In this document: positions 10,685 through 30,781 of the stretch, in pieces | Layout of the letters: each line of letters starts with the position of its first letter | Numbering within the stretch: position 1 is the stretch's first letter | Assembly: GCA_018402015.1 (NCBI GenBank) | Contig: JAGYJL010000002.1 | Location: 1-64,000, forward strand | Direction: 5' to 3' | Origin: Flavobacteriales bacterium | GTDB taxonomy: Bacteria; Bacteroidota; Bacteroidia; UBA10329 | Length of the DNA: 64,000 nucleotides | Made by a program: the position numbers and the translations under genes | Notes under the pieces: generated by a model | What the model was told of the DNA's origin: nothing | Databases searched by the model: none | The model's input: the letters and a program-made list of their open reading frames with translations, nothing else

Positions 10685-10713
10685 TGAAAAAGGGGTTGAA
10701 CTGTTCAGTTCAA

Positions 10714-12291: not shown

Positions 12292-12357
12292 TTTTATGTC
12301 AATAGTTATTATTAGATGTAATTGTATGCGTTTGGGGTAAGGAATTCCTCAGATTCC

Positions 12358-13883: not shown

Positions 13884-14029
13884 GGCAACAGTAAGTTCTG
13901 ACCTTATCCTTGAATTTGCGACAAAGATAAAAATGAAATTCAATTTCCAGCGAATTTTCGCTAATTGAGAATTTTCATTAAAAATTGATTTTCGCAACAT
14001 CGTCAATCGTATATTTGTCCGTTTGCATT

Positions 14030-15406
14030 GTGTCACGGAGCAGAAGAAAATATCAAACTCTCATTTTTGGGCTGAAACTCAAACGTTCCATGCGTAAAAA
14101 TTGTCTCTCCGCAGATTAGCGGAGAAGTCTGGACTGTCTTATCTCTTATTTAAATGAGGTGAAAGGGAAAAGTATCCGAAAGCTGAGAAGATTTCTACGT
14201 TGGCCAACTCGCTTGATGTACTTGCCACGATGGCTTGTTTCGCTGGAAACTGGACAAGCAGCTTTCGCCTGTTGGGAGATATTGAACTCGCGTTTGTTGG
14301 AAGAACTTCCCTTGGAGTTGTTCGGTATTGATAAGGGCAAATTGATTGAGATTGTGCAAGTGCACCACTCAAGGTTTCGGCACCTGTAGTACCATCGCGC
14401 AGATTTCAGGCACATATAACTTAACGCAGGAGAATTTCTACTTGCCCATGTTGCGCTCGTATCAAGAGATGCACGAGAATTATTTTGAGGTATTGGGCAG
14501 GGAAGCGGCGCTTCAGGAAGAATATGAATTGCCTGAAACTGGAAGCATTTCATGGAAGTGTTGCAGAAATATTCTACTGAATAAATTCGGGTGCAACGTA
14601 GAGGAGAACGACCTCAGTGAGTTTCGGAATTGACACACATTCGTTCCGTTTTGTGAAGACGAAGAAGATTCTGATCGATGCCAAGATGGCCGAAACGAAG
14701 GCATTTCTCTATGCCCAAAGGAAATCGGCTACCAGTTTTGGAGATGAGCGGAGGCGCGCCTTGATGACGCCTTGGCCGCGTGCCACGGCTGATGGCGTGC
14801 TGAACAACAGTCGCGCAAGTTATTTTGCTGGAGCGCTTCTCATTTCACCTGAAGAGTTGGCAAAGCTGGAAGGCTTTTCGCCCAACCGAAATGGGACGAT
14901 AAAGGTTTGCTGAATATTTGGAAACGTATAATAGTTCTCCTGAGATGTTCGTGCTGCGACTCATTAATATCATTCCAAAATACTTTGGTTTGAGCGGTAT
15001 GTTCTTCATGCGTTTTCGATGTAAGAGCAACGAAAGCGGGACGTTGAAGAAGCAGTTGCACCTCTCGCGAACGCGCAATTAAAGAAGAAAATCACTTTGC
15101 GCGAAGTATTGCCGCATGGGCGGATGAGACGGTACCAGCAGCCTCGGAAAAAACGCCAAAGGCGCATTGCCATCGTTGCTGACCGAAAATCAACGCCAAA
15201 GCTTTTTGGCGTGGCGTTGGGCCGACCGATGAAACGGAACCCGAATGCCAGTTTGAGCGTGATGATGGTTTTGAGAACGCGGCATTTGCCAAGAAAGTTG
15301 GATTGCTGACGATGCATCCATTGGAACAACCGTGATGGAAATTGATGGCAGTGAACTGCAACGCGAAGAGGAATTCCGAAATATCAAAACTGCGATGAAG
15401 CGCTGA
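14030..15406 (+). CDS. XRE-family regulator with ImmA/IrrE-type domain (RamB/ScfR-like), frame broken
   Basis: Joining frames gives an N-terminal HTH (FGLKLKRSMR, LSADLAEKSGLSYLNE, KGKSIRKAEKISTLANSLDV), then NSRLLEELPLELFGIDKGKL. Next come an IrrE/DUF955-like stretch (ENFYLPMLRSYQEMHENYFEV, TKKILIDAKMAETKAFLYA) and a DUF2083-like tail (SSPEMFVLRLINIIPKYFGL, GRPMKRNPNASLSV). This architecture is that of short-chain fatty acyl/acetate regulators such as RamB and ScfR, which control aceA/aceB in other phyla. Its divergent position 147 bp from aceB fits that role. The start (GTG 14030) and end are approximate. Confidence 0.7.
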
Positions 15407-15472
15407 TGAAGTCAAGCAACAGCAGTGAGCGAACTCACAAACTGAATCCACTGAACGTAGCATCTTTGCCGC

Positions 15473-16150
15473 ATGGCTACAGAGAGCAATCATTGACGTT
15501 ATTATTCCGCGTACAACGAGGAGCAATCCATCGGTTTGGTGTTGGATGAGATTCCCAAAGAATGGGTTCGGAATACGTGGTGGCGAACAATAGTCTGCGA
15601 CAGAACAGGTGAAGTTGCTGAGCTACCTGGAGCCAAAGTGGTGTTTCAACCAAATAAGGCTACGAAATGCATTAACTGACAATCGGAATTCATGTACCTT
15701 GGAAATAAAACCTGACATTATTGTATTTCTCGATGGTGACCATTCTGATTGCAGAGCAATTGCCAGAGGTTGTTAAACCTATTTTAGATAACGAAGGCTG
15801 ATATGGTCATCGGTTCTCGAGCATTAGGAAAGTCAGGCCGGAAGTCTCACCGCAACAGGTTTTGAGGTGGCTGTACGGTTTTACTTCCAGTTGTTCTACG
15901 GAGTGAAGTTCACTGACCTCGGCCCATTTCATTGCCATTCGGTACGAAAGGAGTCTCCTACAACTGAATATGGTTGACCGGAACTACGGTTGGACCGTGG
16001 AAATGCAGATCGAAAGCAGCCGTAGAAATTGCGATGCGTTGAAGTTCCAGTCGATTACCGGTCCGCATCGAAGTCAAAAGTCTCGGGCACGATAAAGGGA
16101 CGATTGGTGCAGGTTACAAGATCATTCTTACCCTTTTCAAATACCTTTGA
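15473..16150 (+). CDS. GT2 polyprenyl-phosphate sugar transferase (Dpm1/Ppm-like), frame broken
   Basis: Reassembled over three frames: IDVII..AYNEEQSIGLVLDEIPKEW, then VVANN, FLDGDHSD, a DMVIGSRALGKS block, GVKFTDLGPF, MVDRNYGWTVEMQI and FQ..YR..SKVSGTIKGTIGAGYKIILTLFKYL. These are the nucleotide-sugar binding, D-x-D (DGD) and C-terminal blocks of dolichyl-/undecaprenyl-phosphate glycosyltransferases. The product would be a membrane-associated lipid-linked sugar used by the polytopic transferases encoded downstream. The start is ATG 15473. It overlaps or abuts the next gene. Confidence 0.75.
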
Positions 16151-17769
16151 ATGATGGAAATGACCCCCTCCCCGCTACGCGGTACTCCCCTTTCAAGGGG
16201 AGAGTTGGTTCTTTGATAAGGCGTTTGAGGAGCCGCTTTAACTCCCCCTGGAAAGGAGGGGCTGGGGATGGTCAGTCAGCTCTTGCGATTCTCGGCTACG
16301 TTCTTCTGGTCCATTTTATATCGTTTTGTCTACTGGCGATTCTGGTTTACAGTTTGGCGCAGGGCATTTGACGATGCTGTCTCCGTGCGAAGCGAAAGGG
16401 AGAAAAAGAAACACGAATTGCCTGATGAGTTGCCATTCGTCACTGTTCAGTTACCTGTGTACAATGATTTGTATGTAGTGGAGCGATTAATCAGACGTGT
16501 GGCGCAATTGGATTACATCCGTTGGATAACTGAGATTCAGAGTGTTGGATGACAGCACCGATGAGTCGGTGGAAGTGGCGGCCAATATCGTAGCTGAAGC
16601 TGCAGAGAAAACAGGCTTGGATATTCAGCATATTAGAAGAGATGAGCGGGTAGGTTTCAGAGGCTGGAGCGCTGTCGTACGGAATGAATCTGGCGAAGGT
16701 GAATTCATTGCCATTTTTGATGCTGATTTTCTTCCTGAAGGATTTTTCTGATGAAGACCTTGCCGTATTTCCAGACGAGAAGATGGTTGGTGCAGACGAA
16801 ATGGAACATCTCAGCCGCGATTATAACTTGCTGACGCTTGCTTTCGATGGCCTTGGATGCGCATTTCACCATTGAGCAGCGTGGCCGGAATTCGAATGGC
16901 GATTTCATGAACTTCAATGGAACGGCAGGAGTTTGGAAGGACATGTATCGAACATCTGGCGGTTGGAGTGCCGATACGCTTTACTGAAGATGCTGATGCG
17001 AGCTATCGCGCGCAGCTTGCTGGTTGGAAGATGAAGTACTTGGAAGAGCAGACTTCGCCAGCGGAAATTCCTGCATTCATTCAGGCCATTCGTTCGCAGC
17101 AATACCGTTGGAACAGGGCGGGGCGGAAGTGGCTCGCAGAAATTTATGAATGTAATGAAGGCTGATCTGCCGCTGCACGTCAAGTTCCATGCACTGTTCA
17201 CCTGTTCCAGCACCAGCATTTTCATTTGCATTTTCCTTGCTGCTGTGATCGGCGTGCCGTTGCTCTATTTTATGGCCGAAACAGGTTTAGCAAGTGAACT
17301 GATGAAGTATGCGGCTGTGTTCTTCCTCCACAGTTTTTCTTCCTGTCCAGGATTCTTTGGACAACCATCCGTCAGAGGCACGCCAATGCGTGGAGTGCAA
17401 CAACTTGGTTCGTACTGTTTTTCCGATTTTTGAGTCTGTCCATGGGGCTTTTCGCACAATGCCATTGCGGTTTCGGAGGATACTTGGGCATCCGTTCGCC
17501 CTTCATCGAACTCCGAAGTACAATATTGTAGGGAAGAAGTCGCATGTGACTGACCAATAAATATGTTGTATCGCGGCCACCTTTTATCGTATTGTTTGAA
17601 GCACTTTTGGCGCTCTATTTCTTAGGCGCAATTATTTGGGCCATTCATGTTGGCTATTACGCGTTCATTCCGTTTCACGTGCTGCTGACCTTGGTTTCAC
17701 GGGCATTACACGTTTTACACCATTAAGCATAGTTTCTTAGAATCTAATGCTGCCGCGTTGGATACATAG
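16151..17769 (+). CDS. Membrane GT2 glycosyltransferase (cellulose synthase-like), frame broken
   Basis: Joined frames give an N-terminal TM helix (GYVLLVHFISFCLLAILVYSL), a GT2 core with PFVTVQLPVYND, VLDDSTDESVEVA, ERVGF and IFDADFLPE (the D-x-D), a QRG..S block, then QQYRWNRG and a run of C-terminal TM helices (FICIFLAAVIGVPLLYFMA, VLFEALLALYFLGAIIWAI). It resembles processive CesA/CsaB-like enzymes. The reading frame into the first helix is open through a GC-rich palindromic repeat at 16158-16280, which replaces or extends the N terminus. The stop TAG at 17767 overlaps the next start. Confidence 0.7.
16158..16280. repeat. GC-rich palindromic repeat, copy 1
   Basis: Two CCCC-rich blocks facing inverted relatives: CTCCCCTTTCAAGGGGAGAG at 16191-16210 is itself a hairpin, and AACTCCCCCTGGAAAGG..GGGGCTGGGGATGG is the far half. 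A frame shared with the downstream glycosyltransferase stays open across it. Related elements occur at 18390-18556, and such sequences are common in Bacteroidota genomes. Confidence 0.7.
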
Positions 17770-19216
17770 GTTGCTGATGTTTGCAGCCTTTCAGTGGCAT
17801 TTGGCATTTGCAGTCATGGCATTGACCGCTTCAATTCGTCTGCCGTGCTCTTGTCATTCGCTGGGCTTTGGTTGATTTTTCCTGATTCAGTGGGTGATCG
17901 TGAGATAAGTGGAGACGGATGATGTTACCGGAATGGTGTTCCGAGCGATTTACTTGTTGGTTTTCCCGAATTGTCTGATGATGTATCCCGATACATCTGG
18001 GATGGCATGTTGACGAATGGGGATTTCTCCGTACTCATGCTTCCGTCAGAATGGTCCGGACACAGGCTGAACAATTTTGGAAACATGCTGCATCAGCTCA
18101 ATTCACCGACTATTATTCTATCTATCCGCCTGTTTTGCAATCGGTATTCGCGTTTAGTGTGTGGCTGGGTAATGGCCCAGTGCTTTCTTCCATTATTGTT
18201 CTTCGGGTGTTAGTGTTGCTAGCGAGTTTGGCTCGATGGTTCTCATCTGGAAGCTTTTAAGCGTGGAAGATGGCAGGCGAACCTGATGTTTATGCCTTGA
18301 ATCCGCTGGTGATCGTTTGAGTTTGCTGGGAATCTGCATGGAGAGGTCTTTATGGTTTTCTTCTTGCTACTGAGTTTGTGGTTGGCCTCCCCCAACCCCT
18401 CCAAGGAGGGAGAAAGAACCCCTCTGCCTTCGGTATCTCCCCAAGGGAGAAAAGTGCCCCACCTGACCCCTCCCCCGAAAGGGAGGGAGCTGAGGTGCTT
18501 CGGGCCAGCCTTTGATTGCTATAAAGCTCCCCTCATGGAAAGGAGGGGCTGAGGAAGGTCTCGTTCTGTCTGCCATTGCCTTTGGTTTGCGAGCGTTGGG
18601 ACAAGCTTTTGCCTATCATTTTCCCTTCCGTTCTACATCAAGCGATTAGGTTGGTTCAGGACCGCGATTTTGGCACAGTTGCGATTCTTACAGTCGCGCT
18701 GCAACATGTTCCATTTGGACGCCCGATACGCTTCAGAATACGTTTTCCTCACTCAGCTCTATTTCGCCAATTTCGAGTTCAATGCGAGTTTCTTTTATAT
18801 CATTCGGGAAGTTGGATTCTGGTATAAGGGCTACAATATTATTGGCGTGACGGCTGTTTGGCTACCGCGTTTGGTTGCTCTTTTATTCTTCTCATTGCAC
18901 TACTGGTTAAGGACAAAGAAGTGTCTGGACTTCCGAAGTTGATGCTCTTTCTTATGGTTCCTTTATTATGCATTTGCCACTACAGTGAATCCGTGGTACG
19001 TGGCCGTGTTGGCGACTTTCCTTCCATTTACCAAGTATCGGTTTTGCGTTGCTGTGGTTGATGCTCGGTTCCACTTTCGTATCAGGCATTCAGGAAACAG
19101 AACCTTTTCGAGAGAATATGTGGCTGATCGCTTTGGAATATGTGCCTGTTTATGCGTGGTTGCTGTTTGAGTTGAATGTGTTGCTTGAGGTTGGAACGAA
19201 AGTGGGCATTGCGTAG
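17747..19216 (+). CDS. DUF2029/GT87-like polyprenyl-phosphate mannosyltransferase, interrupted by a repeat and frame-broken
   Basis: A polytopic membrane protein beginning MLPRWIHRLLMFAAFQWHLA. The marker FPELSDDVSRYIWDGML is typical of DUF2029/GT-C enzymes, with the catalytic-type Asp in a DD pair after helix 1. Later blocks include DVYALNPLVI, EFAGNLHGE and FFLLLSLWLAS; then, after the 165-bp repeat at 18390, GLVLSAIAFGLSVGT, PFYIKRLGWF, and a C terminus VPVYAWLLFELNVLLEV. It probably uses the lipid-linked sugar made by the gene at 15473. The start overlaps the upstream gene by 23 bp. Frames are broken in at least five places. Confidence 0.65.
18390..18556. repeat. GC-rich palindromic repeat, copy 2, inside a coding sequence
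   Basis: CCTCCCCCAACCCCTCC at the left and AAAGGAGGGGCTGAGG at the right are inverted partners, with further GGGAGA/TCTCCC pairs between them. Flanking protein homology (LLSLWLA on the left, GLVLSAIAFGL on the right) is contiguous in relatives of the interrupted transferase, so this is an insertion. The left frame stays open through to 18552. Confidence 0.7.
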
Positions 19217-19223
19217 GGCAGGA

Positions 19224-19775
19224 GTGAAGCGGAAACGGTTGTTGCCGTTGCTGAATGAGAAGGATAGAGGGTCCTTCGCTGCGCTCCAGAGGAAGACAAA
19301 GTGGGAGTTTGCAGGTGTTGGAAGTAGGAGCAGGAAATGGGGCACTGGTAAAGCTTCTAAATAATGAAGGACTGCAGCTTTCGGCTTTGGATATCGAGAA
19401 TAAAAGCCTGTTTGAGGATGTGGCTGTTGAGGTTTATGACGGGGAGAAGTTCCCGTTTTACGGATAAAAGCAGTTCGATGTGTGCCAGTTGGTCGCGATG
19501 CCATCCTTGACCAATGCCGAGGGCGACTCATTCGCGAAGCAAAGCGTGTTTTCAAACCGCGTTATCATTATGGAGGACATTTATGAGGGGGCTGTTTCAA
19601 GAGTACCTTGCCCGGTTTATTAGTTTGGTGAACTGGGGATTCTTTGGTCATCCACATACAGACAAACGGATGCGTGGAGAATTATTCGGAGGAATGGGCT
19701 GGTGGTGGAGAAGGTGGAGTATTATCGGTTTCTGCTGATGCTTTAAGCAGGTGACATTATGTTTTGAGGGGGCTA
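19224..19775 (+). CDS. Class I SAM-dependent methyltransferase, frame broken
   Basis: Motif I is clear (VLEVGAGNGALVKLL). It is followed by LSALDIENKS (acidic end of strand 2), YDGEKFPF and KQFDVCQLV (motif IV region), EAKRV..RVIIMEDIYEG, and a FGHPHTD/ELFGGMGLVVEKVEYY C-terminal part, all once frames are joined. The substrate is unknown; the operon context suggests a glycan or lipid. The start (GTG 19224) and end are approximate. About 50 bp of repeat-like sequence splits LLPLLNEKD from RVLEVGAGNG. Confidence 0.6.
19262..19313. repeat. Short repeat-like insert in the methyltransferase gene
   Basis: The segment GGTCCTTCGCTGCGCTCC..GGAAGACAAAGTGGGAG resembles a dispersed Bacteroidota repeat (a relative of the GGTTCCTCGGAATGACAAA type seen at 24551). 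Removing it restores the expected NEKDRVLEVGAG junction of the methyltransferase. Confidence 0.4.
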
Positions 19776-19838
19776 GAGAAGACAGGAGTTAGAAGCTGGA
19801 ATAATGGAGCTTATGTTGGAACTTGAGGCTTGCGACTC

Positions 19839-20245
19839 TCAAGAGATCGGTTCGCGGTTGCATTCTCCGATAAGGGCCACGGCAACCTGCAATAAGGCCT
19901 AACGATATTGTAGGTGAATTCGAGCATGGCCCAATATGGCGATGTGATGTTGAAATCGCCATAGTAGCTGGTTACGGTAAGCCCGGTGAGGATTCCCATA
20001 AGGAAACCGAATTTAAGACCTTTGGTAAGTGGTTTCCGCCTTGTAAAGCATGTGGTACACGTACACGAATACGATGGCGCGCATGGCGTGGGTAATGAGG
20101 AAATACGCCACGGGCATTTGCATGCGCTCTATGCCGGAATACCCCTCGTTATACCGTCTCGAAATTACTTCGTGCCATAGCACACCTGCAGGGTGATGAT
20201 CGACCAAGCAGCTACCGTAGCCAATATGAAGCGAGCCATGTTCAT
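19839..20245 (-). CDS. Small membrane protein (about 135 residues), unknown function
   Basis: Joining two to three frames gives MNMARFILATVAAWSII, MQMPVAYFLITHAMRAIVFVYVYHML, and LKFGFLMGILTGLTVTSYYGDFNITSP with WAMLEFTYNIVRPL. This makes about four transmembrane segments in a layout like small DUF1761-type membrane proteins, though I am not sure of the family. It stands alone, and the frame breaks are like those of its neighbours. Confidence 0.45.
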
Positions 20246-20294
20246 TAGGGGATGGCAAGTTTAATGATTCTTAGCCTGGTCATGCTGAAGGGTT

Positions 20295-20708
20295 TTACAA
20301 TTTAATGATGCCTTTTGGCGAAGTGTTTTCTGGTACTGGTGTTAGTCCGTTTCCTGATTGGAACGTAGCAATCATAAGACCGTACTCTCGGTTGGTACAG
20401 CATGAAACAGCCTGCTGTAAGCACCGTTTCCGTTGGGAAGTTGGCAGATGGTGGTTCCGTAGATATCGTCATTGCCTGTTATCTGTCGCGTCCATTCCTC
20501 GTTGCCATCAGCATCTACCTTAAGTAGGTAACCTGTGCGCTGGAATGTGGAGGTCTCATCAGCGGTCGCCAATGGTTATGACGCTGTGGTCGGGAGGATG
20601 ACCATCTCAGCGCGTTCTTCTGCCGATGTGGTTCCGTACGTGCGTTGGAAGAGACTCTGTGAGAGGATAAAGGGGAAAAAGAAAAATGAAAAACGTGAGG
20701 AGGTGCAT
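20295..20708 (-). pseudogene. N-terminal fragment of a secreted protein
   Basis: Begins MHLLTFFIFLFPLYPLT, a signal peptide. It is followed by SLFQRTYGTTSAEERAEMV, ADETSTFQRTGYLLKVDADGNEEW and DDIYGTTICQLPNGN, the repeat style found in T9SS-secreted proteins that carry 'GYLLKTDSNGNEIW' modules. It stops at 20295 without any sorting domain, so it is probably a truncated gene. The frame is broken at least twice. Confidence 0.4.
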
Positions 20709-21122
20709 GGGGTTGCTGTTTTGGGGTAATGACGAATATACGAATGGCGCGTGTTGCACGCTGCGGTGAATGATTCATCGTGTTACTATAAGGTGCTATC
20801 ATTCAGTTGAATGCTGACGATAGAAATACGAAAACGGACGAAAAGAATATATATGCTGTCTGGAAAGATAGTGTACGATGAAGGTAATAAATAAGACGTC
20901 ATTTCTAAAGAATATATTGATTGAAAGAATATAGTAGATGACCAAAATAACTGGCTAACCGCCTGTAGCCATTATTGAACAGACCAAGGTAGTGAGAAGC
21001 TAACGAAGAGGATGTAAAAATGACTATTAGAAGGAGGAAGAGACTGAAAATAATTATTTCAGAGCGTTTGAGCGGAGAGATGGTCGGTCTGGAGAGTGTG
21101 GTCATTTAAAACACGTGAAGCC
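20709..21122. other. No gene recognised
   Basis: About 410 bp with stop codons in all frames and no homology that I recognise. It is A+T-richer than the flanks and holds no clear repeat or terminator. Confidence 0.5.
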
Positions 21123-21546
21123 ATGTTGCATTCTGAGATTGGAAGGTTGATAAGAAAAGGAGCCTGAAAGTCCGAAAGTCTTTCTGCGCAAGCGGATTAC
21201 GGACCGCGAGTGCGAACGCTGACACAATCCGCTGGACTTGTGCAGGTGCGGGATAGCATGATGCAACGGCTATGTGAGGCGATAGGATGCACACCGAATG
21301 ACATTTTACGGTGGCGTGGGGCGGCCCAGCCATTTACAGGCGCTGAATATGATGATGAAGGTGGAGAATGCGGCAGACCTGCTTGCCGACCTTAAGCAGC
21401 CGGAGTTGGAGCTTCTGTTGAAAAAGGCCGAGCAACTGGTGCAGGATGCGTCTAAATTGAGCATTGGTGGTGAGGACGACTTTTCTGAACGTAGCGCGTA
21501 TTGCGGGCAACGACAGCAACTTCGTCGAAGTTTATCTGTGCAATAA
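21123..21546 (+). CDS. Small HTH (Cro/C1-type) DNA-binding protein, frame broken
   Basis: ATG 21123 starts MLHSEIGRLIRKRSLK. After frame joining come LTQSAGLVQVRDSMMQRLCEAIGCTPNDILRW, the last part being the hallmark of short Bacteroidota HTH_26/XRE regulators (LCEA..CTPNDLL), and a tail ADLLADLKQPELELLLKKAEQLV. It probably binds DNA as a dimer. Its target is unknown; it lies at the left edge of the repeat/toxin region, so it could be a cassette regulator or a stray gene. Confidence 0.5.
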
Positions 21547-21803
21547 AGGTTGCAGTTGGTGAGTAAAGCTTTCAGTTCGGAACGGAAGTCGGTTCGGGTG
21601 GATATGTTGGCGCGATTGTGTGTTTTGCTTCGGTGCTTACCGAACGACCTTTATGATTGAGTACTGCGCATCATTTGAACGGATTGCGAAAAGTAACGGG
21701 GATCGGAAGTGATGACGGAACATCTGGCATTGCTTCCTTGTTGAGATCGGGGAGGGTTCTGAGGAGTTGAAGAGAACGGGACAATGATGCTGATGGATCT
21801 GGG

Positions 21804-21926
21804 TTTCTCTCAAGTCCGTGGAAGTGCGCTAGGTGTATTTTGGGTTTTTGTTCTAAAGATACGTTCGAAACTTATCGTGTTATGTTCCACACAAAGAAGT
21901 CCTTCGGAATTCTTGCGCGTGCCATT
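21804..21926 (+). repeat. Interspersed hairpin repeat, copy A (degenerate)
   Basis: Starts TTTCTCTCAAGTCCGTGG and includes AAGTGCGCTAGGTGTATTT, a degenerate stem (GATACGTT/AACTTATC) and TCCTTCGGAATTCTTGCGCG. It lacks the left 'GTGCTCAG' end. The most diverged of four copies, all in the same orientation. Confidence 0.8.
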
Positions 21927-22011
21927 GGAACACTTAGCCGGGCGAGGGAGTTTTGCCGAACACAAATGATTAGACTTCCTCACAACTATTCAAAGATGCC
22001 TGTTTCAGTTT

Positions 22012-22495
22012 CTATTTTTCGATCGTTTTATTTTCCCTGAATTTAACTTGCTCAACCGGTTGAGTATCTGGGCAAATAGTTTCCCGGTTCCCTAACGGCT
22101 CCCCATATCTCATTATTCCGCATTTTGTAGCAGTTTTCTCTTCAGCTAATTCACAATATCTTCCTCTATAGTGAACTAAGTATTCTTGGAGGACGCTAAG
22201 GCGAAGATTTCCCAAAGATCTTCAGTGAAAGAGGAATCATTACGAAAGAATCAGCGTAGCCTCTCAACAGAAGTCACGGTATTATCTGAGCTGTAACGCA
22301 CAAGAAGCAGGCGGTTGCCATAGAAATCCACTTACCAGCCGCTGCCCAGTCACTCCCTGAAATTCAAACGATTCTGACTCGCTCTTGGTCCAGTCTCTGA
22401 AAATCTTTCAGCAGATCTTATTTACAATTCTAAAGACTGTGATTACGCCAACGAAACACCTCCAGAAAAAACAGAACGAAAAATACTTTAAGCAT
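22012..22495 (-). CDS. Candidate immunity protein / hypothetical, frame broken
   Basis: Starts at ATG 22495, 19 bp after the stop of the Rhs fragment. The N terminus is hydrophobic (MLKVFFVLFFLEV). The rest is recoverable only by joining frames (SSDNTVTSVERL, FFRNDSSFTEDLWEIFA) and ends in the open stretch KCGIMRYGEPLGNRETICPD...ENKTIEK. I recognise no family. The position directly downstream of an Rhs toxin-like tip is where immunity genes sit, so that role is inferred from context only. Confidence 0.35.
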
Positions 22496-22514
22496 AAAAC
22501 AAAAATATAATTAC

Positions 22515-23425
22515 CTAATAAGGTTCGGTTCGTAATGGGCCAAGAGCGGTGCCGTCAGCATAGTGTAGCCTGATTCCACTGTACTATATTACTCGGAATA
22601 CTGTTTCCACTACGCGTAGAACCATCAGCTGTAGGATTAAAGTACAATTCGTACTGGCCAGCAAGTCCGATGCCTCGTTGATTAAAATTCCGGAGCTGTC
22701 GCTACTCAACTAAAAACATTCGGATTGGCATTCCGTATTGATCGGCTTCACTATTGCGTGGCAGCAGAGCTGCAGTTCCGTTGAGGATTAAAACTCGAGT
22801 AGCATTCTGCTGGAGCTGTACCAGCAGCCACCATTGCCATTGTCAATAGCGTTCTGAACAGACACATCAATATTAGTCAGGTCCCACGGCAGACAGTAAG
22901 CCTCGGCCATTACCCGAACTCCATAATCTTGGTTAAACTGGTTTCTAATTGTCGCTGCGAAACTGACCCAGAACACTCCTTGTGCGGGAGTTACCGGTCA
23001 TGCTTGATCGTGACAACATCTTGATGAGCCTGTTTATTCAAGAATACTGATTCAAGACACTTTGTATCCGATTAGTCATTCCGTTTGCTGTTCCTTGTTG
23101 AGTACCGTTCTCAATTTCAACAGTATTCGTTAAGTTACCATTTGGATTTCTCTGCTTGTCTATGTCAACCTGATATGTCACACCATCAGCTCTTTTATCT
23201 TGGTAGCTAACATCCTCTAATCCTTCAAGCTCCACTCTGTGTATCAATTTGTTGCCACTAAAGCTATATGGACTATAGTGAGGATACTTTTTGTTAAAGG
23301 GTCAACTGCAAAGAACCTATAACCCTCGTGGGTCGTGCATCCTGTACTTGTAATTGACGCTATTGCCGTTCCCTTGCAACTCATCATCCCTTCTCCTGCC
23401 CTTGGAAGCCGAATCTGTAGCCAGT
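22515..23425 (-). pseudogene. Rhs C-terminal cassette: truncated core plus toxin-like tip
   Basis: The first ~55 residues are the Rhs repeat-associated core end: TGYRFGFQGQE, GNSVNYKYRMHDPR.GRFFAVDPL, YPHYSPYSFSGN, VELEGLEDV. Everything upstream of TGYRFGF is missing, because repeat copy B begins at the next base. The variable tip that follows is about 240 residues over several frames (GVTYQVDIDKQRNPNGN, NRIQSVLNQYS, GVFWVSFAATIRNQFNQDYGV, YELYFNPTADGS), ending at TAG 22515. No toxin fold is recognised. Rhs tips of this kind act in contact-dependent killing, but this copy lacks a delivery portion and looks like an orphan cassette. Confidence 0.6.
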
Positions 23426-23558
23426 GTGCTCAGAGGAGGAAAAAGGACGAAAACCCAGCATGGCAGAAAAGTAGGTTTTTGTTCTCAAAGTTTTCTCTCA
23501 AGTCCGTGGAAGTGCGCTAGGTGTACTTTGGGTTTTGTGCTGAAGATCAGTTCGGATA
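23426..23558 (+). repeat. Interspersed hairpin repeat, copy B (right end missing)
   Basis: Begins GTGCTCAGAGGAGGAAAAAGG and continues through GTTTTCTCTCAAGTCCGTGG and AAGTGCGCTAGGTG to GATCAGTTCGGA, where similarity stops midway through the hairpin. The left terminus abuts the broken Rhs core; the right side ends 22 bp from the hepT stop. Confidence 0.9.
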
Positions 23559-23579
23559 CGGCATCTGGTGAAAAACAAA

Positions 23580-23921
23580 TCACCTTTTTAACGCTCCGAT
23601 CTCAGCTTTGAGTATAGGAAGGTCCTTTATCAGAATTCTCCACAAGGCGGCAGGGTCGATGGAATCGTAGGCGTGAACGATCAGATTACGCAGGCCTATT
23701 ATCTGGTCGGCACTTGAAATGGGAAGCTCCTTGTCCAGTTTTCTGATCTGTGAGACCGCCTCACCAATGATCATCAGGTCGCGTTCTACAGCCCTTACAG
23801 AAATGAAATTGCTACTGAAATCGTTGAAATCCCTTCGGTGATGTTCCAGTATCTTCTCCAGTTCTTCAATGATGGACTCCACGTCCATCAACAGTTTCGG
23901 AATTCGCTTATGCGGCAGCAT
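23580..23921 (-). CDS. hepT: HepT-like toxin (DUF86 ribonuclease/nucleotidyl-acceptor)
   Basis: 113 residues from ATG 23921 (or 12 codons later). Mostly helical, and contains RNLIVHAY, the R-x4-H-x-Y active motif of HepT/HEPN toxins, near residue 85. HepT is an RNase-type toxin kept inactive by its partner MntA, which adds AMP units to the HepT tyrosine of this motif. The start overlaps the mntA stop by 14 bp. This gene is intact despite lying in the frameshift-rich block. Confidence 0.85.
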   Translation of the reverse strand: MLPHKRIPKLLMDVESIIEELEKILEHHRRDFNDFSSNFISVRAVERDLMIIGEAVSQIRKLDKELPISSADQIIGLRNLIVHAYDSIDPAALWRILIKDLPILKAEIGALKR

Positions 23922-24222
23922 ACAACGGTACTTTGGTGCGATCCACTTCCTGTTTGAAGATCGGGTTTCTGATAACGTTGTACGAAACAAGATCGACCCG
24001 TCTGTTCAATAGCATTTCCAACGAACGGAGTACTTCAAAAAAGGCATCACCACGCTCCAATGGGCTCAGTTCTTCTTTGAATACCACGGCAAGGTCCACA
24101 TCGCTATCTTCTGGCAGGTTATGCTGCAAAGCAGAACCGAACAGGAACAATGCTTGCACACCATTCTTCCGGCAGATGGCCTCTGCGCAGCTTTTTGGTT
24201 CTGTTTGCGGCAGCGTGTTCAT
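23908..24222 (-). CDS. mntA: MntA-like nucleotidyltransferase antitoxin
   Basis: 104 residues. FLFGSALQHNLPEDSDVDLAV carries the GSx(10)DxD minimal nucleotidyltransferase motif of MntA, the antitoxin that modifies HepT. It is followed by RRVDLVSYNVI and KVPLYA, as usual in the family. mntA precedes hepT with a short overlap, the standard arrangement for translational coupling. The pair is flanked by repeat copies B and C. Confidence 0.85.
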   Translation of the reverse strand: MNTLPQTEPKSCAEAICRKNGVQALFLFGSALQHNLPEDSDVDLAVVFKEELSPLERGDAFFEVLRSLEMLLNRRVDLVSYNVIRNPIFKQEVDRTKVPLYAAA

Positions 24223-24329
24223 TCCCGATCGTTATCCAGTTCAAACTTACGAAACAAAGGTATTCTATCTACTGCTGCGAAGCCGCTGCCTCTGTAGGGC
24301 TCAGGGTGCGGACTGAGTAAACAAGGCAG

Positions 24330-24516
24330 GTGCTCAGAGGAGGAAAAAGGACGAAAACCCAACATGGCATAAATATCGGTTTTTGTTCTCAATGTTTTCT
24401 CTCAAGTCCGTGGAAGTGCGCTAGGTAGTTTTCGGGTTTTGTGCTTAGATCAGTTCGGAAACTGATCGTACTTAGTTCCACACAAGAAATCCTTCGGAAT
24501 TCTTGCGCGAGCATGG
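24330..24516 (+). repeat. Interspersed hairpin repeat, copy C (full length)
   Basis: The most complete copy, about 187 bp, from TGCTCAGAGGAGGAAAAAGG to GCGCGAGCATGG. The ends carry TGCTC/GAGCA as 5-bp inverted termini. Internally there is a perfect hairpin, GATCAGTT-CGGA-AACTGATC, at 24448-24467 and a second TTCG-capped stem around 24483-24503. Confidence 0.9.
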
Positions 24517-24572
24517 GGAAGGAAGCGTCTCTCTTGATGTGAGATTCCTTGTTCCTCGGAATGACAAAATTG

Positions 24573-24704
24573 GTGCTCAGGTTTTCTCTCAAGTCCGTGG
24601 AAGTGCGCTCAGTGTATTTTGGGTTTTGTTCTTAAGATCAGTTACAAACTGATCGTACTTAATTCCACACAAGAGATCCTTCGGAACTCTTGCGCGAGCA
24701 TGGG
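24573..24704 (+). repeat. Interspersed hairpin repeat, copy D (internal deletion)
   Basis: Has both ends (GTGCTCAG and GCGCGAGCATGG) but lacks the ~57-bp segment between GTGCTCAG and GTTTTCTCTC found in copies B and C. Its hairpin is GATCAGTT-ACA-AACTGATC, with the same stem and a changed loop. It lies 56 bp after copy C; the spacer contains GTTCCTCGGAATGACAAAA, another dispersed repeat. Confidence 0.9.
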
Positions 24705-24898
24705 GGTCATGTACGTATACTTCTGGCATCCTTCCTGCCGCTTCGCCAAGAACTATCAGGTTACATGATAAACGGCATCGCGCGTTCTGCCATCGGAAAC
24801 AAAGCCTTCAAAACTAAGCCCATCGCGTAAAGAAGCAGTATTTTTCTGGACCGCCTCTACCATATCTTGCAGAATGATGTAGGCAGCCGTACCGACAT
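24705..24898 (-). pseudogene. Second hepT-like gene, truncated at repeat copy D
   Basis: After frame joining, the residues ILQDMVEAVQKI, LSFEGFVSDGRTRDAVYH and LIVLGEAAGRMPE match the first half of a HepT/DUF86 protein. Homology ends at MPE, 1-3 codons before copy D, so the R-x4-H-x-Y active motif is absent. Start near ATG 24898. The nucleotidyltransferase partner precedes it. Confidence 0.55.
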
Positions 24899-25180
24899 TG
24901 ACCACCTCTTCTTTAATGATGCTCCCAGTAGTGTGGCTTGAGTGCACGCCTGCATACCAGATGCGTCATGACCCAGCAATTGCTTCAATTCTTGTTGGAG
25001 GTCAAAGAATTCCCAGCCCATCTCGCCATCAAATCAATGAGAATATCCACATCGCTGGTCTGTGCATTGAAATCGGACCGCACTACAGACCCGAACAAGG
25101 CAAGATAGGAGATAGGATAACGCTTTCTCAGAGCCGGAGACCTCCTGATAGTTTGTGCTGATGTCCTTAAACGATTCCAC
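24890..25180 (-). CDS. Second MntA-like nucleotidyltransferase, frame broken
   Basis: Contains LALFGSVVRSDFNAQTSDVDILIDF, a GSx(n)DxD nucleotidyltransferase motif, then EFFDLQQELKQLLGH and a tail ending IKEEVVNVGT, as in MntA/MNT-family antitoxins. The start is near GTG 25180. It overlaps the truncated hepT-like gene and is therefore an antitoxin left with a dead or missing toxin. Confidence 0.6.
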
Positions 25181-25361
25181 AACACAAATATAAGCGAATG
25201 AGGGCGGGTAGCTTTGGGTTTGGTGGCTAATCTGATGATGGGCACACGTTACGCAAAAAGTTGAATGCGCGCCAGCACGGAGTCAAACTGCAATTTTTGG
25301 CAACATTTTGTTTAGAAAGAGTGCAGCAGGACCGTAAATTGACTGATCGGAACCAAATTCA

Positions 25362-27500
25362 ATGATAAGGTCAATACTCACATTTCTTTTCAGCTTTTAT
25401 TTCTGGTAGAAGCCACAGACCGAACATGTTGTGGGTGGTGAGATACATTGGGAGTGCATTGATAATGGCCCCGATGCTGGGAAGATGGTTTTCTATGTAA
25501 AACTGTTCCACGATTGCTCAGTACAGAATACCATTGTTTCGACAAATGGTCAAATTTATCGTTATTACGAATCACCTGTTTTGTGGGTGTGCAGATACCC
25601 TTGACCCTTGTTTATAAAAGCAGATGCTAACTGATGCGTTATACAGTGTTCCTTGCAGTTTGGCAAGTGGGGGCGACCTGTCTTTCCGTAGTACCTGTTT
25701 AAGACGAATGGAAATAGCCATTACTGGTGTTCCGCCTACAAACGGTTACACAGTTGTTTACAGTCGGTGTTGTAGAAATGAGGTCGACAATCTGACCGAT
25801 GCCAGTAATTCTGAGGGTTTATTATACCTGGCTACCATGTTTCCATTTGAAAGTAGACAGATGTATCCGTGTTATGACTCCAGCCCTCAATTCGTTGAGA
25901 CACTTGCTTCTGTTGGTTGCTCAGGAAGTGAACTACGATATTATTCTGCGTTGGGGGTTGATCGGGATTTGATTCACTCCAGTTATGTGTTCGTTCCTGC
26001 TTTGGGCGAAATGGAATACCTATCCCGTATAGTGCCGGATATACATTCGATGTTCGTTGCCGGGTCCGATGTTAAATCGGTTATGATGCAGTGGAACGGT
26101 ATCCAGCGGATGCGTTGAATACGATAGTCCGCCCAATTTTCAAGGTAGGTGGTCGATTGTCACAGCCGTTGACGCATGGCGTTGTGGGGTTCGCATTTCG
26201 AGTGATCGGCTATTCGCTCATCATATTGCCTTGTAGCACGGAGAATGCTGCTCTGTAGTTAGTAATCCTATTTGGACGAGCCTATTAGCGCCAGTGGTTT
26301 TGAGGTAAGTGTGCCGGCGGGTGATGCGATGAGTTTTTCTTTGAACGCCATGAATTCGAGCTCATTGGGTTGCTGCCTCAGGAAATGACGTTTGAGGCTG
26401 TTGGAAGTCAATTTGGAAGTGGATTCACCGATGAACAGTGGATGTGGATTGTTCCTTGTGCGACCCTTGATGACCTCCGCCCGTTTCGGTAGGTGACTCA
26501 ACCGTGCTGAGTACGGTCTTCAACTGGCAGACCTCGTGTAACCATGTTATACAGAATGCTTGATTATGACCACTTCCAGTACCTACCATTTTCATTTTTC
26601 AAATTCAATGATGATTTCTGTCCGGCAAATGGCATTAGAATAGTAAACATGGCGGTGACCGTTCTAGGTGATTCATATAGTGTCAAGTCCCATGTCCGTT
26701 GTGTCAGTTTGGATTCGACCGGCAATGTTACGCTGGCATGGGAGCCTACTTTGGATACGAATGCTGTTCCCTCTTTTTGTGGAATATATCATTGAGCACG
26801 GGACAGCTGAATCGGGGCCTTTGTGGAGGTGGGAACCGTAACAACTATTGAAACAGGCTTTGTTCATGATGTTGGACATCTAATACCTCCCAGTCAGGTA
26901 GGGTGAATTACTACCGGGTGAGATTACAAGGTCTGGATGTAATGATTCGGCTGTTGCTGCCGCAGAAAGGATGCGTATCAGTATTCATCTTACGATGGTC
27001 AATACAGGAACCAGCGCAGAACTGAGCTAGATGCGATATCCGACCCGTTGCCGTCACTTCCAATTCCGTTTTATCACATTTATCGTGAATACCCTGTGAA
27101 TATGGAGCCTGATGGAAGCTCCCTGCCTCGGCATTGAGTTATTCGGATTCTGTGGTTTGGGTGGTGAGCAGGTGAATTATCGCGTTGAGCTGACGAATGA
27201 ACTGCCCTGTGTATCGGTTTCAAATATTGTGGGGGATGTTTGGATGGTGTCAGTGATTTTCATCCAGTCGGTTCAGTTAAGTTTGCAGATCCAAGTGAAG
27301 GAACTTTCAACCTGAGTTCAGACATGGATTATGCTTGGGTATAGATTTACTTGATATTTCAGGCAGAATAATCGATGAGCATCGTTTCTCATCAGCAACA
27401 AAAGCTATCCAATCTGATTTACATTGCAAGACGTTGGGACATATCTACTTCTGGTAGAAACTGAAGTAAATTTGCAGTGCAGAAGGTTGTGATTCATTGA
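25362..27500 (+). CDS. T9SS-secreted surface protein with type A sorting domain, frame broken
   Basis: ATG 25362 opens a signal peptide (MIRSILTFLFSFYFW). The N-terminal block EHVVGGEIHWECID and the later YTVVYSRCCRN are signatures of large T9SS adhesin-like proteins. Next come a DAWRCGVRIS block, a LPQEMTFEAVGSQFG region, and fibronectin-like segments (VSLDSTGNVTLAWEPTLDTNAV). A type A sorting domain (DPSEGTFNLSS, DLLDISGRIIDEHRF, VGTYLLLVETE..FAVQKVVIH) ends at TGA 27498-27500. About 710 residues in all, spread over many frames. Probably exported by the gldKLMN machinery and anchored to or released from the surface. Confidence 0.65.
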
Positions 27501-28588
27501 TCGGCCCTCCCCCAGTAAGCCTTTCACTACTTTGAATTGGTTGAAGAACTCGCCAACGAATACGCGGCCAATGCTGTAGGTGGGAATGGCGAGATCATTA
27601 CCAGCTATCTTAGGCCACGTTTCCGGCCATGAGGATGACAAGGAAGATCTCAATGGATGGGCTTTGACGCTCTGCGAAGTAGATAAGCGGTTGAAGTACA
27701 ATATTGTCCAATAGTTGGGCTACAGCATATACGATGGCCATTTGCCCCGTTAGGCTGGTATATCTGTGAGGTTAAGCCCCTGCCGAGTTGGTGCTTGATA
27801 CCAATGGTGATACCTACGCCTGCGCCAATTATACAGGACCTACGTACGGAATGACATTGAACGGCCCCGCAATGAATCCGATGAGTAAGGCGTTGTCGAT
27901 ACCCGCAGTACTGAGCCCTGCGGAAACGATGGTCATTACGATAGCCCACTTCACCATAATGACACCAATGAAGTAACGCGTAAGCGGTTCTTTGCTTTTG
28001 TGCAGCACCTTGCCAATGCGCACTTCATACTCATCAGGTATGAGCGTCATGATGCGTGTTCTTGAACGATTAAGCTGGTCCTTTAGGAAGAAGAAGGTGA
28101 TGAAGGTGATAGCGAAGAAGGCAATGAAGATATCGCCTGTTGACCGAGCGCATATTGGCCACGCTGTGCCTAGGCCGAAATATCGAAGAGATGGGTGAGC
28201 AGGTTCTTCAGTTCGGTCTCGAGCACTATGGGTGCTTCGGTAAGTTTGGTTGATGTAGTCCTGTGCTATTTGGATGGGGCCCGAATGTTGCTTATAACGT
28301 CTTCGGTATTAACGTTGGAGAGTTTGCGCGCCTCGTCTGCCACCATGGGAACAAAGGCGCTGATGTTCCACTCCGAAGAAACTCAAGCCCAAAGATGGTA
28401 AGGGATGCAGCCGCTGCCCTGCATTGTTTTTCCCTTGTATTGGAGTTTGAGCAGAAAACGGATGAGCGGTTCGCCAGCAGTTGAGATGACACCTGCTACC
28501 AGAATGCTTAGGCGATGATGGTGTGGAGTACCATGCCATGGCCAGTAGAGCGTGATGGCGGGTACGTAGATCAGTTTCTGTTTTTCAT
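27494..28588 (-). CDS. AI-2E family transporter (PerM-like permease), frame broken
   Basis: The C-terminal half is clear: LIPDEYEVRIGKVLHKSKEPLTRYFIG, MVKWAIVMTIVSAGLS, LLIGFIAGPFNVIPYVGPVIGAGVG, then LAIPTYSIGRVFVGEFF. These are the conserved GxxxxIPYVGP and terminal blocks of the AI-2E/PerM family. The N terminus (ATG 28588) gives two helices, a coiled region (VADEARKLSNVNTEDVIS) and TFFFLKD. About eight membrane segments are expected. Substrates of the family vary and none is implied here. It converges on the adhesin gene with an overlap of about 7 bp. Confidence 0.7.
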
Positions 28589-28613
28589 GTTGTACGAATA
28601 TACGTAGGAGACA

Positions 28614-28644
28614 AAAAGAAGCAGCCCCTTGTGGAGTTGCTTCC
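28614..28644 (-). terminator. Terminator after ftsZ (end of the dcw cluster)
   Basis: On the minus strand, GAAGCAACTCC and GGGGCTGCTTC form a near-perfect stem around a short loop and are followed by TTTTTGT. It lies about 60 bp downstream of the ftsZ stop. Confidence 0.7.
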
Positions 28645-28702
28645 CTGAAATAGTGAATGCGGCGGGTGGGTTTTCTTAATCTACTGATTTATGTAGAACT
28701 CG

Positions 28703-30781
28703 TTATTTGTCGCTGAGCCCACCACGTCTGTTACCATTCTCGTCTGTTTCTTCACCAGTTACCTCAAATTTGGTAACCGTGCTTTCTGAAGAATGAGGCA
28801 TGTTATCAAATTGACGTTGCACACGTCTTTTGAGCCGGAACGTTCTCCAATTCAGCCAGTTGGTTGGTGAGTTGAATCTGCGGTTCATTCCTTTCAAGCG
28901 CTCTAAACGCTCCAACTGCTTGCGCTGCATTTCTTCCGTATCGAAACTATCGGTAGGCTCGTTGCGGGTAAGGAGTTGTGGTTCGTTGGTAAGACGCGCG
29001 GTTTCGGCCTTTGTTGAAGAAGCCTCTGGGGTTTCGTCATACAGGTTGAACATGGTAACGTTCTCCTCCTTTGCTACAGGTGTTTCCTTCTTTACCTCAA
29101 ACTCGAATTCGGTAGGAGTTTCGGTAGTAACGATGTTGTCCGTCTTCGGTTCTTCATCTTTCGGTTCGCTAAAGGCTCTGAACGTTTCTGTTTCTTCTTC
29201 CGCTACAGGCGTGTTGGCAATAGGCTGTTTGAAAAGGCTGAACGGCATTAACGGTGCTGTTTCTTCCTCTTCGGTTTCTGTCTCTGCCTCGATGTTGGAC
29301 ACTTCGTCTTCTTCGTGGTGGAATGTTTCCTCTTCTTCGAAAACAACCATTTCGGTTTCGGTGGTTATTCCGAAATCATCGTCATACTCATCATCGTCTT
29401 CCTCATTGTACATTGGAAGTTCCTCGCCTTCCTTCACCCCGATCATCTCTGGAGCTTCGGCATTGATGATGGCATTGAGTTCCTCGTCATTCTCATCCAC
29501 TTTGTATGCCATGAGGGTGGAGGCGGTTGGTATTTCCTCTTCTTCATCATCTAGCAGCAAGGTGTGCTTGATAAGCGGCTCTTCTTTTGGAGCTTGGAAT
29601 GTTGGCGTTTCGTTGATCGGTGTATTGTCGAAGTCGTTGTTCAGGTCTGTTGCCGGACGAAGTCGCTCATTCATCAACTTAGGACGTGCAGTAAGACCAG
29701 AAGGAATGGAGGCCTTCGGTTCTGTCTTAGGTGCAGCTGTTGGTGCTTGACGGTGCGTGTCGAGTACGTGTCTTACCACATTCTCTTTGCCTGTTACTTT
29801 CTCCAACTTTTCTCCAGAGAAGCCGGTAGCAATAACAGTAAGCGTAAGTCGATCGCCAAGGTCTTCATCGGTGCCGTTACCCCAAATAACATCGGCATCC
29901 ATACCTGCTTCTTCTTGAATATAATCGGTGATCTCGGCCACTTCGTCCATGGTAACCTCATCAGAGCCAGAACTGATATAAAGGAGGATGTTGCTGGCTC
30001 CGTAGATGTTGTTGTCGTTAAGTAGCGGAGAGGCCAAAGCCTGCTCCACAGCCTTAATGGCGCGATCCGGACCTGAAGTTGTTGCAGAACCCATTATGGC
30101 CACGCCTGAGCTGGTCATTACGGTTCTAACATCTTCGAAATCCACGTTTACGTAACCTTCTACGGTAATGATCTCTGCAATACCCTTGGCAGCAATGGTC
30201 AATACGTCATCGGCCTGTCCGAAAGCTTCGCTGAGTTTCAGGTTTCCGTACATCTCACGCAGTTTATCGTTAGAGATGATGAGAACCGTATCAACGTGCT
30301 TTTTCAATTCTTCGAGACCGAGGTCTGCTTGCAGTTTACGTTTCTTGCCTTCGAAACCGAATGGAATGGTTACGATACCTACAGTGAGGATTCCAAGTTC
30401 GCGTGCTGCCTCTGCAATGACCGGGGCGGCACCTGTTCCCGTACCACCGCCCATTCCGGCAGTGATGAATACCATTTTGGTATCGTTGCAGAGTACGTCC
30501 TTGATGTCATCGAGGTTTTCGATGGCCGCATTACGGCCTACTTCGGCCTGTGCACCAGCGCCACGGCCTTCTGTGAGGCTCGATCCCAATGCGATCTTCT
30601 TTGGCACTGGGCTCATGTCGAGCGCCTGTTGATCTGTATTACAGACCACGAAGTCTACGCCTCTAATGCCTTGTTTGTACATGTGGTTGACAGCGTTTGA
30701 GCCGCCTCCACCAACTCCGATCACTTTAATGATCGAGCTTTCCTCTTTGGGGAGATTGAAATTCATCATGTCCTTAGCCAT
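28703..30781 (-). CDS. ftsZ: FtsZ, tubulin-like division GTPase
   Basis: 692 residues. The GTP-binding tubulin signature GGGTGTGAAP is at 111-120, with VGGGGSNAVNHM near residue 23. A GTPase/C-terminal domain of about 330 residues is followed by a long acidic linker (EEEE- and TETE-rich, about 350-620). The expected C-terminal tail motif (NQLAELENVPAY.RR) is present only in the +1 frame at about 28815-28860, where the annotated frame reads NWLNWRTFRLKRR. This is probably a pair of compensating indels. It forms the Z ring with FtsA, encoded immediately upstream. Confidence 0.95.
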   Translation of the reverse strand: MAKDMMNFNLPKEESSIIKVIGVGGGGSNAVNHMYKQGIRGVDFVVCNTDQQALDMSPVPKKIALGSSLTEGRGAGAQAEVGRNAAIENLDDIKDVLCNDTKMVFITAGMGGGTGTGAAPVIAEAARELGILTVGIVTIPFGFEGKKRKLQADLGLEELKKHVDTVLIISNDKLREMYGNLKLSEAFGQADDVLTIAAKGIAEIITVEGYVNVDFEDVRTVMTSSGVAIMGSATTSGPDRAIKAVEQALASPLLNDNNIYGASNILLYISSGSDEVTMDEVAEITDYIQEEAGMDADVIWGNGTDEDLGDRLTLTVIATGFSGEKLEKVTGKENVVRHVLDTHRQAPTAAPKTEPKASIPSGLTARPKLMNERLRPATDLNNDFDNTPINETPTFQAPKEEPLIKHTLLLDDEEEEIPTASTLMAYKVDENDEELNAIINAEAPEMIGVKEGEELPMYNEEDDDEYDDDFGITTETEMVVFEEEETFHHEEDEVSNIEAETETEEEETAPLMPFSLFKQPIANTPVAEEETETFRAFSEPKDEEPKTDNIVTTETPTEFEFEVKKETPVAKEENVTMFNLYDETPEASSTKAETARLTNEPQLLTRNEPTDSFDTEEMQRKQLERLERLKGMNRRFNSPTNWLNWRTFRLKRRVQRQFDNMPHSSESTVTKFEVTGEETDENGNRRGGLSDK

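Follow-up and report, generated by a model that had tools for sequence, protein, structure and literature searches.

The Rhs fragment, its frames and its tip

Is an Rhs fragment that lacks its shell, has broken reading frames and is followed closely by a small gene a decaying remnant, a silent donor for another rhs gene, or a cassette that is kept in its own right? The question is raised by positions 22012-23425, on the minus strand, of the window analysed here (the whole stretch of 64,000 nucleotides, on contig C112 of a 3.08-Mb, 208-contig assembly that is 83% complete and whose gene content suggests the phylum Bacteroidota). A sequence-only reading had described an Rhs core end and pieces of a C-terminal tip at this location, and both were found there, occupying 23425-22515 and spread over several reading frames. 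The features and translated pieces concerned are the following:

23215-23425, minus strand: end of the Rhs core, YRFGFQGQEK..DDELQGNGNS..YPHYSPYSFSGNKLIHRVELEGLE, in noise-broken frames
22515-23214, minus strand: C-terminal tip, about 230 residues in several frames, ending ..YADGTALGPLRTEPY, with its stop at 22517-22515
22012-22495, minus strand: candidate immunity gene of about 160 codons, spread over two or more frames, with the hydrophobic start MLKVFFVLFFLEVF
within 23387-23497, minus strand: translated piece YRFGFQGQEK
within 23320-23484, minus strand: translated piece DDELQGNGNSVNYKYRMHDPR
within 23247-23429, minus strand: translated piece RFFAVDPLTK
within 23041-23301, minus strand: translated pieces KKYPHYSPYSFSGNKLIHRVELEGLED..QVDIDKQRNPNGN
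within 22791-22997, minus strand: translated piece AATIRNQFNQDYGV
within 22558-22701, minus strand: translated piece YELYFNPTADGS
10709-28950: noisy stretch, with 12-36 frame-breaking indels per kb relative to sister genomes, where frames cannot be judged

The fragment directly adjoins a repeat that ends at 23426, a feature absent from the sequence-only reading, and upstream of the repeat lies a HepT/nucleotidyltransferase module and no Rhs shell, in agreement with the earlier description of an orphan tip. The variable tip stands directly behind the Rhs core end, as is characteristic of orphan modules, and TIGR03696 matched three intact relatives with E values of 2.8e-12 to 3.5e-14.

Broken frames and a missing shell are what a functionless remnant, decaying after a rearrangement between repeats, would be expected to leave, and the sequence-only reading had itself pointed to stops throughout the tip as evidence against an orphan module. 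Stops are indeed present, but the indel rates relative to sister genomes make noise their best explanation. The rates given above count indels that are not multiples of three, in alignments with sister genomes that are at least 150 nt long and lie at 10.7-28.95 kb, with shorter alignments and those within the same genome (L027, L028) left out. Outside this stretch the corresponding values were 2.8 per kb (2.8-3.5 kb), 1.9 (29.8-30.8 kb) and 6.1 (29.8-31.7 kb), and a 175-nt alignment at 29.4-29.5 kb, within the open ftsZ frame, gave 11.4. Coverage by open frames of at least 150 codons falls from about 0.9 to 0-0.6 at about 10-28 kb and recovers on either side. The stretch is unpolished, with core genes full of frame-breaking indels, and gene calls within it are unreliable. 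The genes broken there include three that are open in the sister genome G008, as ORFs of 529, 537 and 377 aa, the last of which is AI-2E-transporter-like (names of the three assigned by eye). Because neighbouring genes that are intact in the sister are broken at the same rate, the broken frames of the tip are best explained as noise rather than decay. Pseudogene decay was thus rejected as their explanation, and a stretch of this quality allows no conclusion on whether the tip is decaying. The three readable cousin cassettes described below (two on contig C1, one in the sister species G003) are moreover intact, which makes a decaying remnant improbable.

With regard to the identity of the tip, searches of Pfam, NCBIfam, PADLOC, PHROGs and PDB sequences, conducted with pieces from the window and/or its relatives in G068 and G347, returned no family, and the earlier statement that the tip belongs to no recognised toxin family therefore stood. 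The NCBIfam search matched the Rhs core alone, the one weak PHROGs match was to a function-unknown family and lay over the core, and the one Pfam match of the G347 relative was below cut-off and outside the tip. Relatives of the fragment do exist: an 87-aa piece comprising the core end and the start of the tip matched Rhs ORFs in two other genomes of 395 in the class, with 46% and 43% identity (E 7e-16 and 4e-11). In G068 the Rhs ORF has 513 aa and precedes a 160-aa gene; in G347 it has 652 aa and precedes a 229-aa gene. A 69-aa middle piece of the tip, used alone, matched no other genome among the 395. When the tip DNA was compared to the G068 tip allowing for frameshifts, it scored 100, against a mean of 40 (sd 5) and a maximum of 59 for 60 shuffles, while three decoy tips scored 24-36. 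A homologous tip attached to an Rhs protein elsewhere, the absence of which the sequence-only reading would have counted against itself, is thus present in G068. Without its first 40 residues the tip scored 60 (shuffled mean 38, maximum 61), and the relatedness to G068 is accordingly most strongly supported in the first part of the tip. The comparison to the G347 tip scored 47, which is not significant; between the G068 and G347 tips themselves the E value is 0.002, and the window tip is linked to G347 through G068 alone. No relatives of the tip were found in the genome_contigs, viral_contigs, plasmids and phages collections, and a profile built from both foreign tips, run over 395 genomes of the phylum, retrieved G068 again and nothing else, with the genome studied here unmatched. 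In other genera, L074:226-5680 and L075:3-3302 contain short Rhs ORFs in succession, each of which carries some of the core and a tip of its own; a small gene follows most of them.

The small gene on the same strand, which had been predicted to follow the tip at a distance of 19 bp, was also found: its ATG (22495-22493) lies 19 nt past the tip stop, the gene extends to 22012, and its layout makes it a candidate immunity gene. The genes downstream of the G068 and G347 relatives have a 43-residue stretch in common (46%), and the small gene of the window resembles neither of them (best E value inside its coordinates 0.29), so that tip and small gene are paired here by position alone.

The leader repeat and the islands it occurs in

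The leader repeat that precedes the fragment and its surroundings in the window are as follows:

23426-23559, minus strand: leader repeat, immediately before the Rhs fragment and in frame into it, with a possible ATG at 23461-23459
21804-21948, minus strand: next repeat copy (hairpin part, then leader core), the 3' boundary of the cassette
24330-24520, minus strand: repeat copy (leader and hairpin part) upstream of a nucleotidyltransferase/HepT module, with no Rhs core behind
24581-24720, minus strand: fourth repeat copy, in tandem with the third
23580-24222, minus strand: HepT-like ribonuclease (23580-23990; PF01934, E 7.8e-19) and nucleotidyltransferase (23908-24222; PF18765, E 9.4e-16)
24756-25245, minus strand: second nucleotidyltransferase/HepT pair, in broken frames, with an intact relative in the G003 array (L052:9573-10197)
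20742-27505: island absent at the syntenic place in the sister genome G008 (about 6.8 kb here, 1.8 kb there)

All four copies in the window share a single orientation, that of the toxin genes. The genome studied here holds 19 matches to the repeat, of any length, at E <= 0.001, and the repeat was matched in seven of the 59 genomes searched (our own included), all of the same genus. The invariant stretch of the leader was reached by 15 matches, one of them partly, in our genome and G003 only: four each on C112, C1 and G003:C36, and three on C123. The matches in the other five genomes did not reach it, and the hairpin half of the repeat is dispersed there. A scan with the leader pattern gave 13 matches, one of which, at 57824 of the window (4 edits), was taken as chance and excluded from the leader counts; a weak copy on C123 (17990-18043), beyond the E-value limit of the multi-genome search, is outside the count of 15. 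Hairpins occupy the upstream half of the repeat, and for one copy the z values were -1.66 for the single-strand DNA fold and -2.65 for the RNA fold of the other strand. Rfam gave no match over 20.7-27.6 kb at E <= 0.1, and an exact scan for the 21-nt leader core found no match in genome_contigs and viral_contigs, from which near relatives are possibly omitted.

Orphan tips stand behind the same leader in four cassettes: the one in the window, two on contig C1 and one in the sister species G003. On C1 (46997 and 48567, 2/2) and in G003 (C36:30341, 1/1) the Rhs core follows directly after the repeat, from profile position 13. When the four cassettes were aligned from the YRFGF codon, the leader (-110 to 0) was 82-92% identical in all six pairs, and 85-89% among the three clean cassettes; the noise of the window lowers the values that involve it. 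Identity was 40-78% upstream of the leader (-150 to -110; clean cassettes 40-53%), 63-81% over the core (0 to +70; clean 70-81%) and 38-60% beyond it (+70 to +150; clean 50-60%). As judged from these alignments, a near-constant leader is combined with exchanged downstream parts, and since identity drops inside the conserved core motif, homologous recombination might take place there. The order of the unit (leader repeat, Rhs core end, tip, small gene, hairpin repeat, next leader) is repeated twice on C1 and once in G003, with tips that differ. The last codons of the leader (FSAMLGFR.FSSSEHTG) could be homologous to the Rhs core, which is suggestive only, as the one tblastn piece (54% over 26 columns) includes nine columns of the core's own YRYGFQGQE. 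We also considered the G003 tip as a relative of a full-length Rhs tip in G008:C53, where HELVH and HEYTH had been noticed by eye, and rejected this homology when a tblastn search with the G003 tip (E 1e-4) missed that locus.

The four islands in which the leader occurs contain Rhs-tip cassettes, type II toxin-antitoxin modules or both, encoded on the same strand as the leader. In addition to the modules of the window listed above, there are two Rhs-CT cassettes and a ParE-type toxin just under the Pfam cut-off on C1; MqsA-like/DUF4258, ParE and an Unstab_antitox-like ORF with its neighbour, with no Rhs, on C123; and RHH/PemK, nucleotidyltransferase/HepT, Rhs-CT and ParE on G003:C36. Several of these module matches fall below Pfam curated cut-offs, and four of the ten small island ORFs scanned gave no family. 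Genes outside the toxin-antidote kind are present as well, namely a 323-aa ORF on C1 and, on the plus strand of the window, an ORF that looks HTH-like near 21.2-21.55 kb and another at 25.6-26.1 kb (both by eye). Like the island of the window in G008, the C1 array (about 7.1 kb) is missing from sister genomes, in this case G003, G004 and G008. It ends on either side in a 31-nt direct repeat (30 identical; L027:5304-5334 and 12417-12447), and the empty sites of G003 and G004 have a single copy of this flanking sequence.

Some further observations concern repeats. The 31-nt sequence that flanks the C1 array derives from the 3' end of the adjacent 489-aa ORF, and a second repeat family, of 63 nt, has three copies within the array (L027:5478-5540, 6273-6335 and 10068-10130). 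On contig C9 of G008 (L092:4603-5819), about 220 bp, made of the 3' end of an AI-2E-transporter-like gene and the sequence behind it, are duplicated (85%) on either side of a small gene with a lipoprotein-like start.

Immunity, addiction or silent donor

We consider it probable that the locus is an orphan Rhs-CT/RhsI cassette, residing in a repeat-bounded toxin-antidote array and kept mainly for immunity. A tip without a shell could not be delivered, and the candidate immunity gene would guard the cell against neighbours whose full-length Rhs bears the same kind of tip. With the leader staying fixed, homologous recombination inside the short conserved motif of the core, YRFGFNG.EKDDE.KGNGNS, would exchange one tip for another, and entire units may be gained, lost and reshuffled between direct repeats. 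Relatives of the G003 tip (35%) and of its immunity gene (25% and 33%) lie side by side in G066. In E. coli EC93, as described in PMC3150448, an orphan immunity gene is made and protective, and the orphan toxin is apparently not made. Some of our observations do not sit easily with this reading. The tip ORFs of the readable cassettes are intact and open from the leader, and a purely immune role needs neither; the small gene of the window is paired with its tip by its position; three short core-bearing ORFs of the sister G008 (one on C5, two on C59) have no leader; and some genes of the islands are not of the toxin-antidote kind.

Alternatively, the cassette might act within its own cell as a type II toxin-antitoxin module, with the leader supplying the start codon of the tip and the small gene expressed together with it, and be kept by addiction. 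This is the main rival to an orphan cassette kept for immunity, with which it is compatible, due to an in-frame ATG and the neighbouring toxin-antitoxin modules, which lie in the same islands under the same repeat. The ATG is found 42 nt before the YRFGF codon in all four cassettes, and in the three readable ones (C1 two, G003 one) no stop interrupts the frame from the leader onwards. A precedent is offered by the orphan rhs of Salmonella, reported in PMC7043789 to be a type II toxin-antitoxin system expressed from an internal transcript with its own start. The same ATG, however, also occurs in leader copies with no Rhs behind them, and so is perhaps not kept for the tip. The immunity candidates, in addition, do not look like a cytoplasmic antitoxin: the three that are readable begin with LIVCLAFHGCQ (first C1 cassette), MELWEIVLFFVAAY (second C1 cassette) and RTILLIHLFSVAGYAQ (G003), and by eye they comprise a lipobox- or lipoprotein-like start, a signal-peptide-like start and what looks like a membrane protein. 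Since these candidates look envelope-bound, the targets of the toxins are probably in the envelope. Overall, we regard addiction as possible, albeit unlikely.

A third possibility, put forward in the sequence-only reading, is that the tip is a silent cassette, able to recombine onto a full-length rhs of the same genome. In a CDI locus of Yersinia an orphan module does seem to have been joined to the main gene (PMC3150448), and a partner might be missing from an assembly that is 83% complete. The search for a full-length rhs with a matching core end, which had been proposed along with this idea, nevertheless found none in the assembly: of its six Rhs core matches, four are of a visibly different core class (three on C185, one on C200) and two are the C1 orphans. 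In G003, which is 98% complete, the leader-led orphan cassette is likewise the sole Rhs core match. The silent-donor proposal did not hold up in these searches, and we now find it very unlikely. The Rhs-like ORFs of C185 (L030) are in tandem and about 1000 codons long, with near-identical starts (MPNPQY..), differing tips and a small gene after each.

A possible cassette platform, known systems and significance

If units are exchanged between islands, the leader could be the site of a site-specific recombinase acting in trans, and the islands an integron-like or rAID-like cassette platform. Leader copies are 0.7-1.7 kb apart (0.19 kb in one tandem pair), the modules are alike in orientation, and a near-invariant stretch, GCGCACTTCCACGGACTTGAG, lies within the leader; the 31-nt direct repeat that bounds the C1 array, present once in the empty sites, would also suit such a mechanism. 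Against it, tblastn with three recombinases of the genus (E <= 0.01) found no recombinase in the four islands, of which that of the window is noisy, and the boundaries of the repeat differ between copies. Integron arrays consist of small cassettes, often toxin-antitoxin modules, in one orientation and with a repeated element between them. The islands resemble them in their small co-oriented cassettes with a repeated element, but no integron integrase exceeded the cut-off: for TIGR02249 (cut-off 265 bits) the best pieces, on C57, scored 131 and 89 bits, with model positions 180-240 unmatched. An attC-like pair (RYYYAAC..GTTRRRY, 40-160 nt) was present in none of eight inter-cassette regions, as judged with this simple pattern and with the noisy window regions left out. 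Membership of the integrons was rejected on these two grounds, and a recombinase platform of any kind seems to us a remote prospect. Contig C57 also carries, on the minus strand at L029:7338-9932, an 864-aa restriction-methylase-like ORF with a REP-transposase-like stretch (GDHMHLLLV) mid-way, both by eye.

The rAID arrays of Bacteroidales, as PMC12247911 describes them, combine short orphan immunity genes in one orientation with conserved motifs between the genes and a tyrosine recombinase. Our islands are partly similar, with a row of short genes on one strand, candidate genes for interbacterial immunity among them, and a conserved intergenic sequence. They differ from that description in that the candidate immunity genes are accompanied by toxin tips and toxin-antitoxin modules; a tyrosine recombinase upstream, looked for with the same three genus recombinases as the only queries, did not turn up in the islands.

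Likenesses are also found among the orphan rhs-CT/rhsI and cdiA-CT/cdiI modules. There too, as described in PMC3150448, a detached tip with a short conserved upstream motif is followed by a small gene, several modules may stand in a row, and unrelated tips have a common upstream motif. The modules described there, however, are located downstream of a full-length gene, and most of the cdiA-CT orphans have no translation start signals. In the present case a matching full-length gene did not turn up, each of four cassettes follows a genus-restricted repeat containing an in-frame ATG, and toxin-antitoxin modules are interspersed. The orphan rhs of Salmonella, as presented in PMC7043789, is similarly a shell-less tip with an immunity gene and possibly its own start, but it adjoins its full-length rhs, and the immunity candidates studied here look envelope-bound.

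Detached tips are already known, as are orphan tips in rows (PMC3150448); less familiar is an arrangement in which tips share a repeat in front of them and stand among ordinary toxin-antitoxin genes, and Rhs tips and toxin-antitoxin modules under one shared repeat were not described in the open-access literature matches listed. The leader could conceivably be the hallmark of an undescribed platform of this genus, in which a direct repeat collects Rhs tip/immunity and type II toxin-antitoxin modules, lets them move as units between islands, and gives a formerly shell-bound tip a stand-alone start of its reading frame; we consider this rather doubtful.

Why bacteria keep toxin tips that have no shell is a question raised in both PMC3150448 and PMC7043789. 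Tips under a near-constant repeat, in the company of toxin-antitoxin modules, and in one case in a genome (G003) with no other Rhs core, make this question testable. If tips and their immunity genes are kept without any shell, immunity or addiction, and not the exchange of weapons, must explain it, and the repeat would be a possible unit of exchange.
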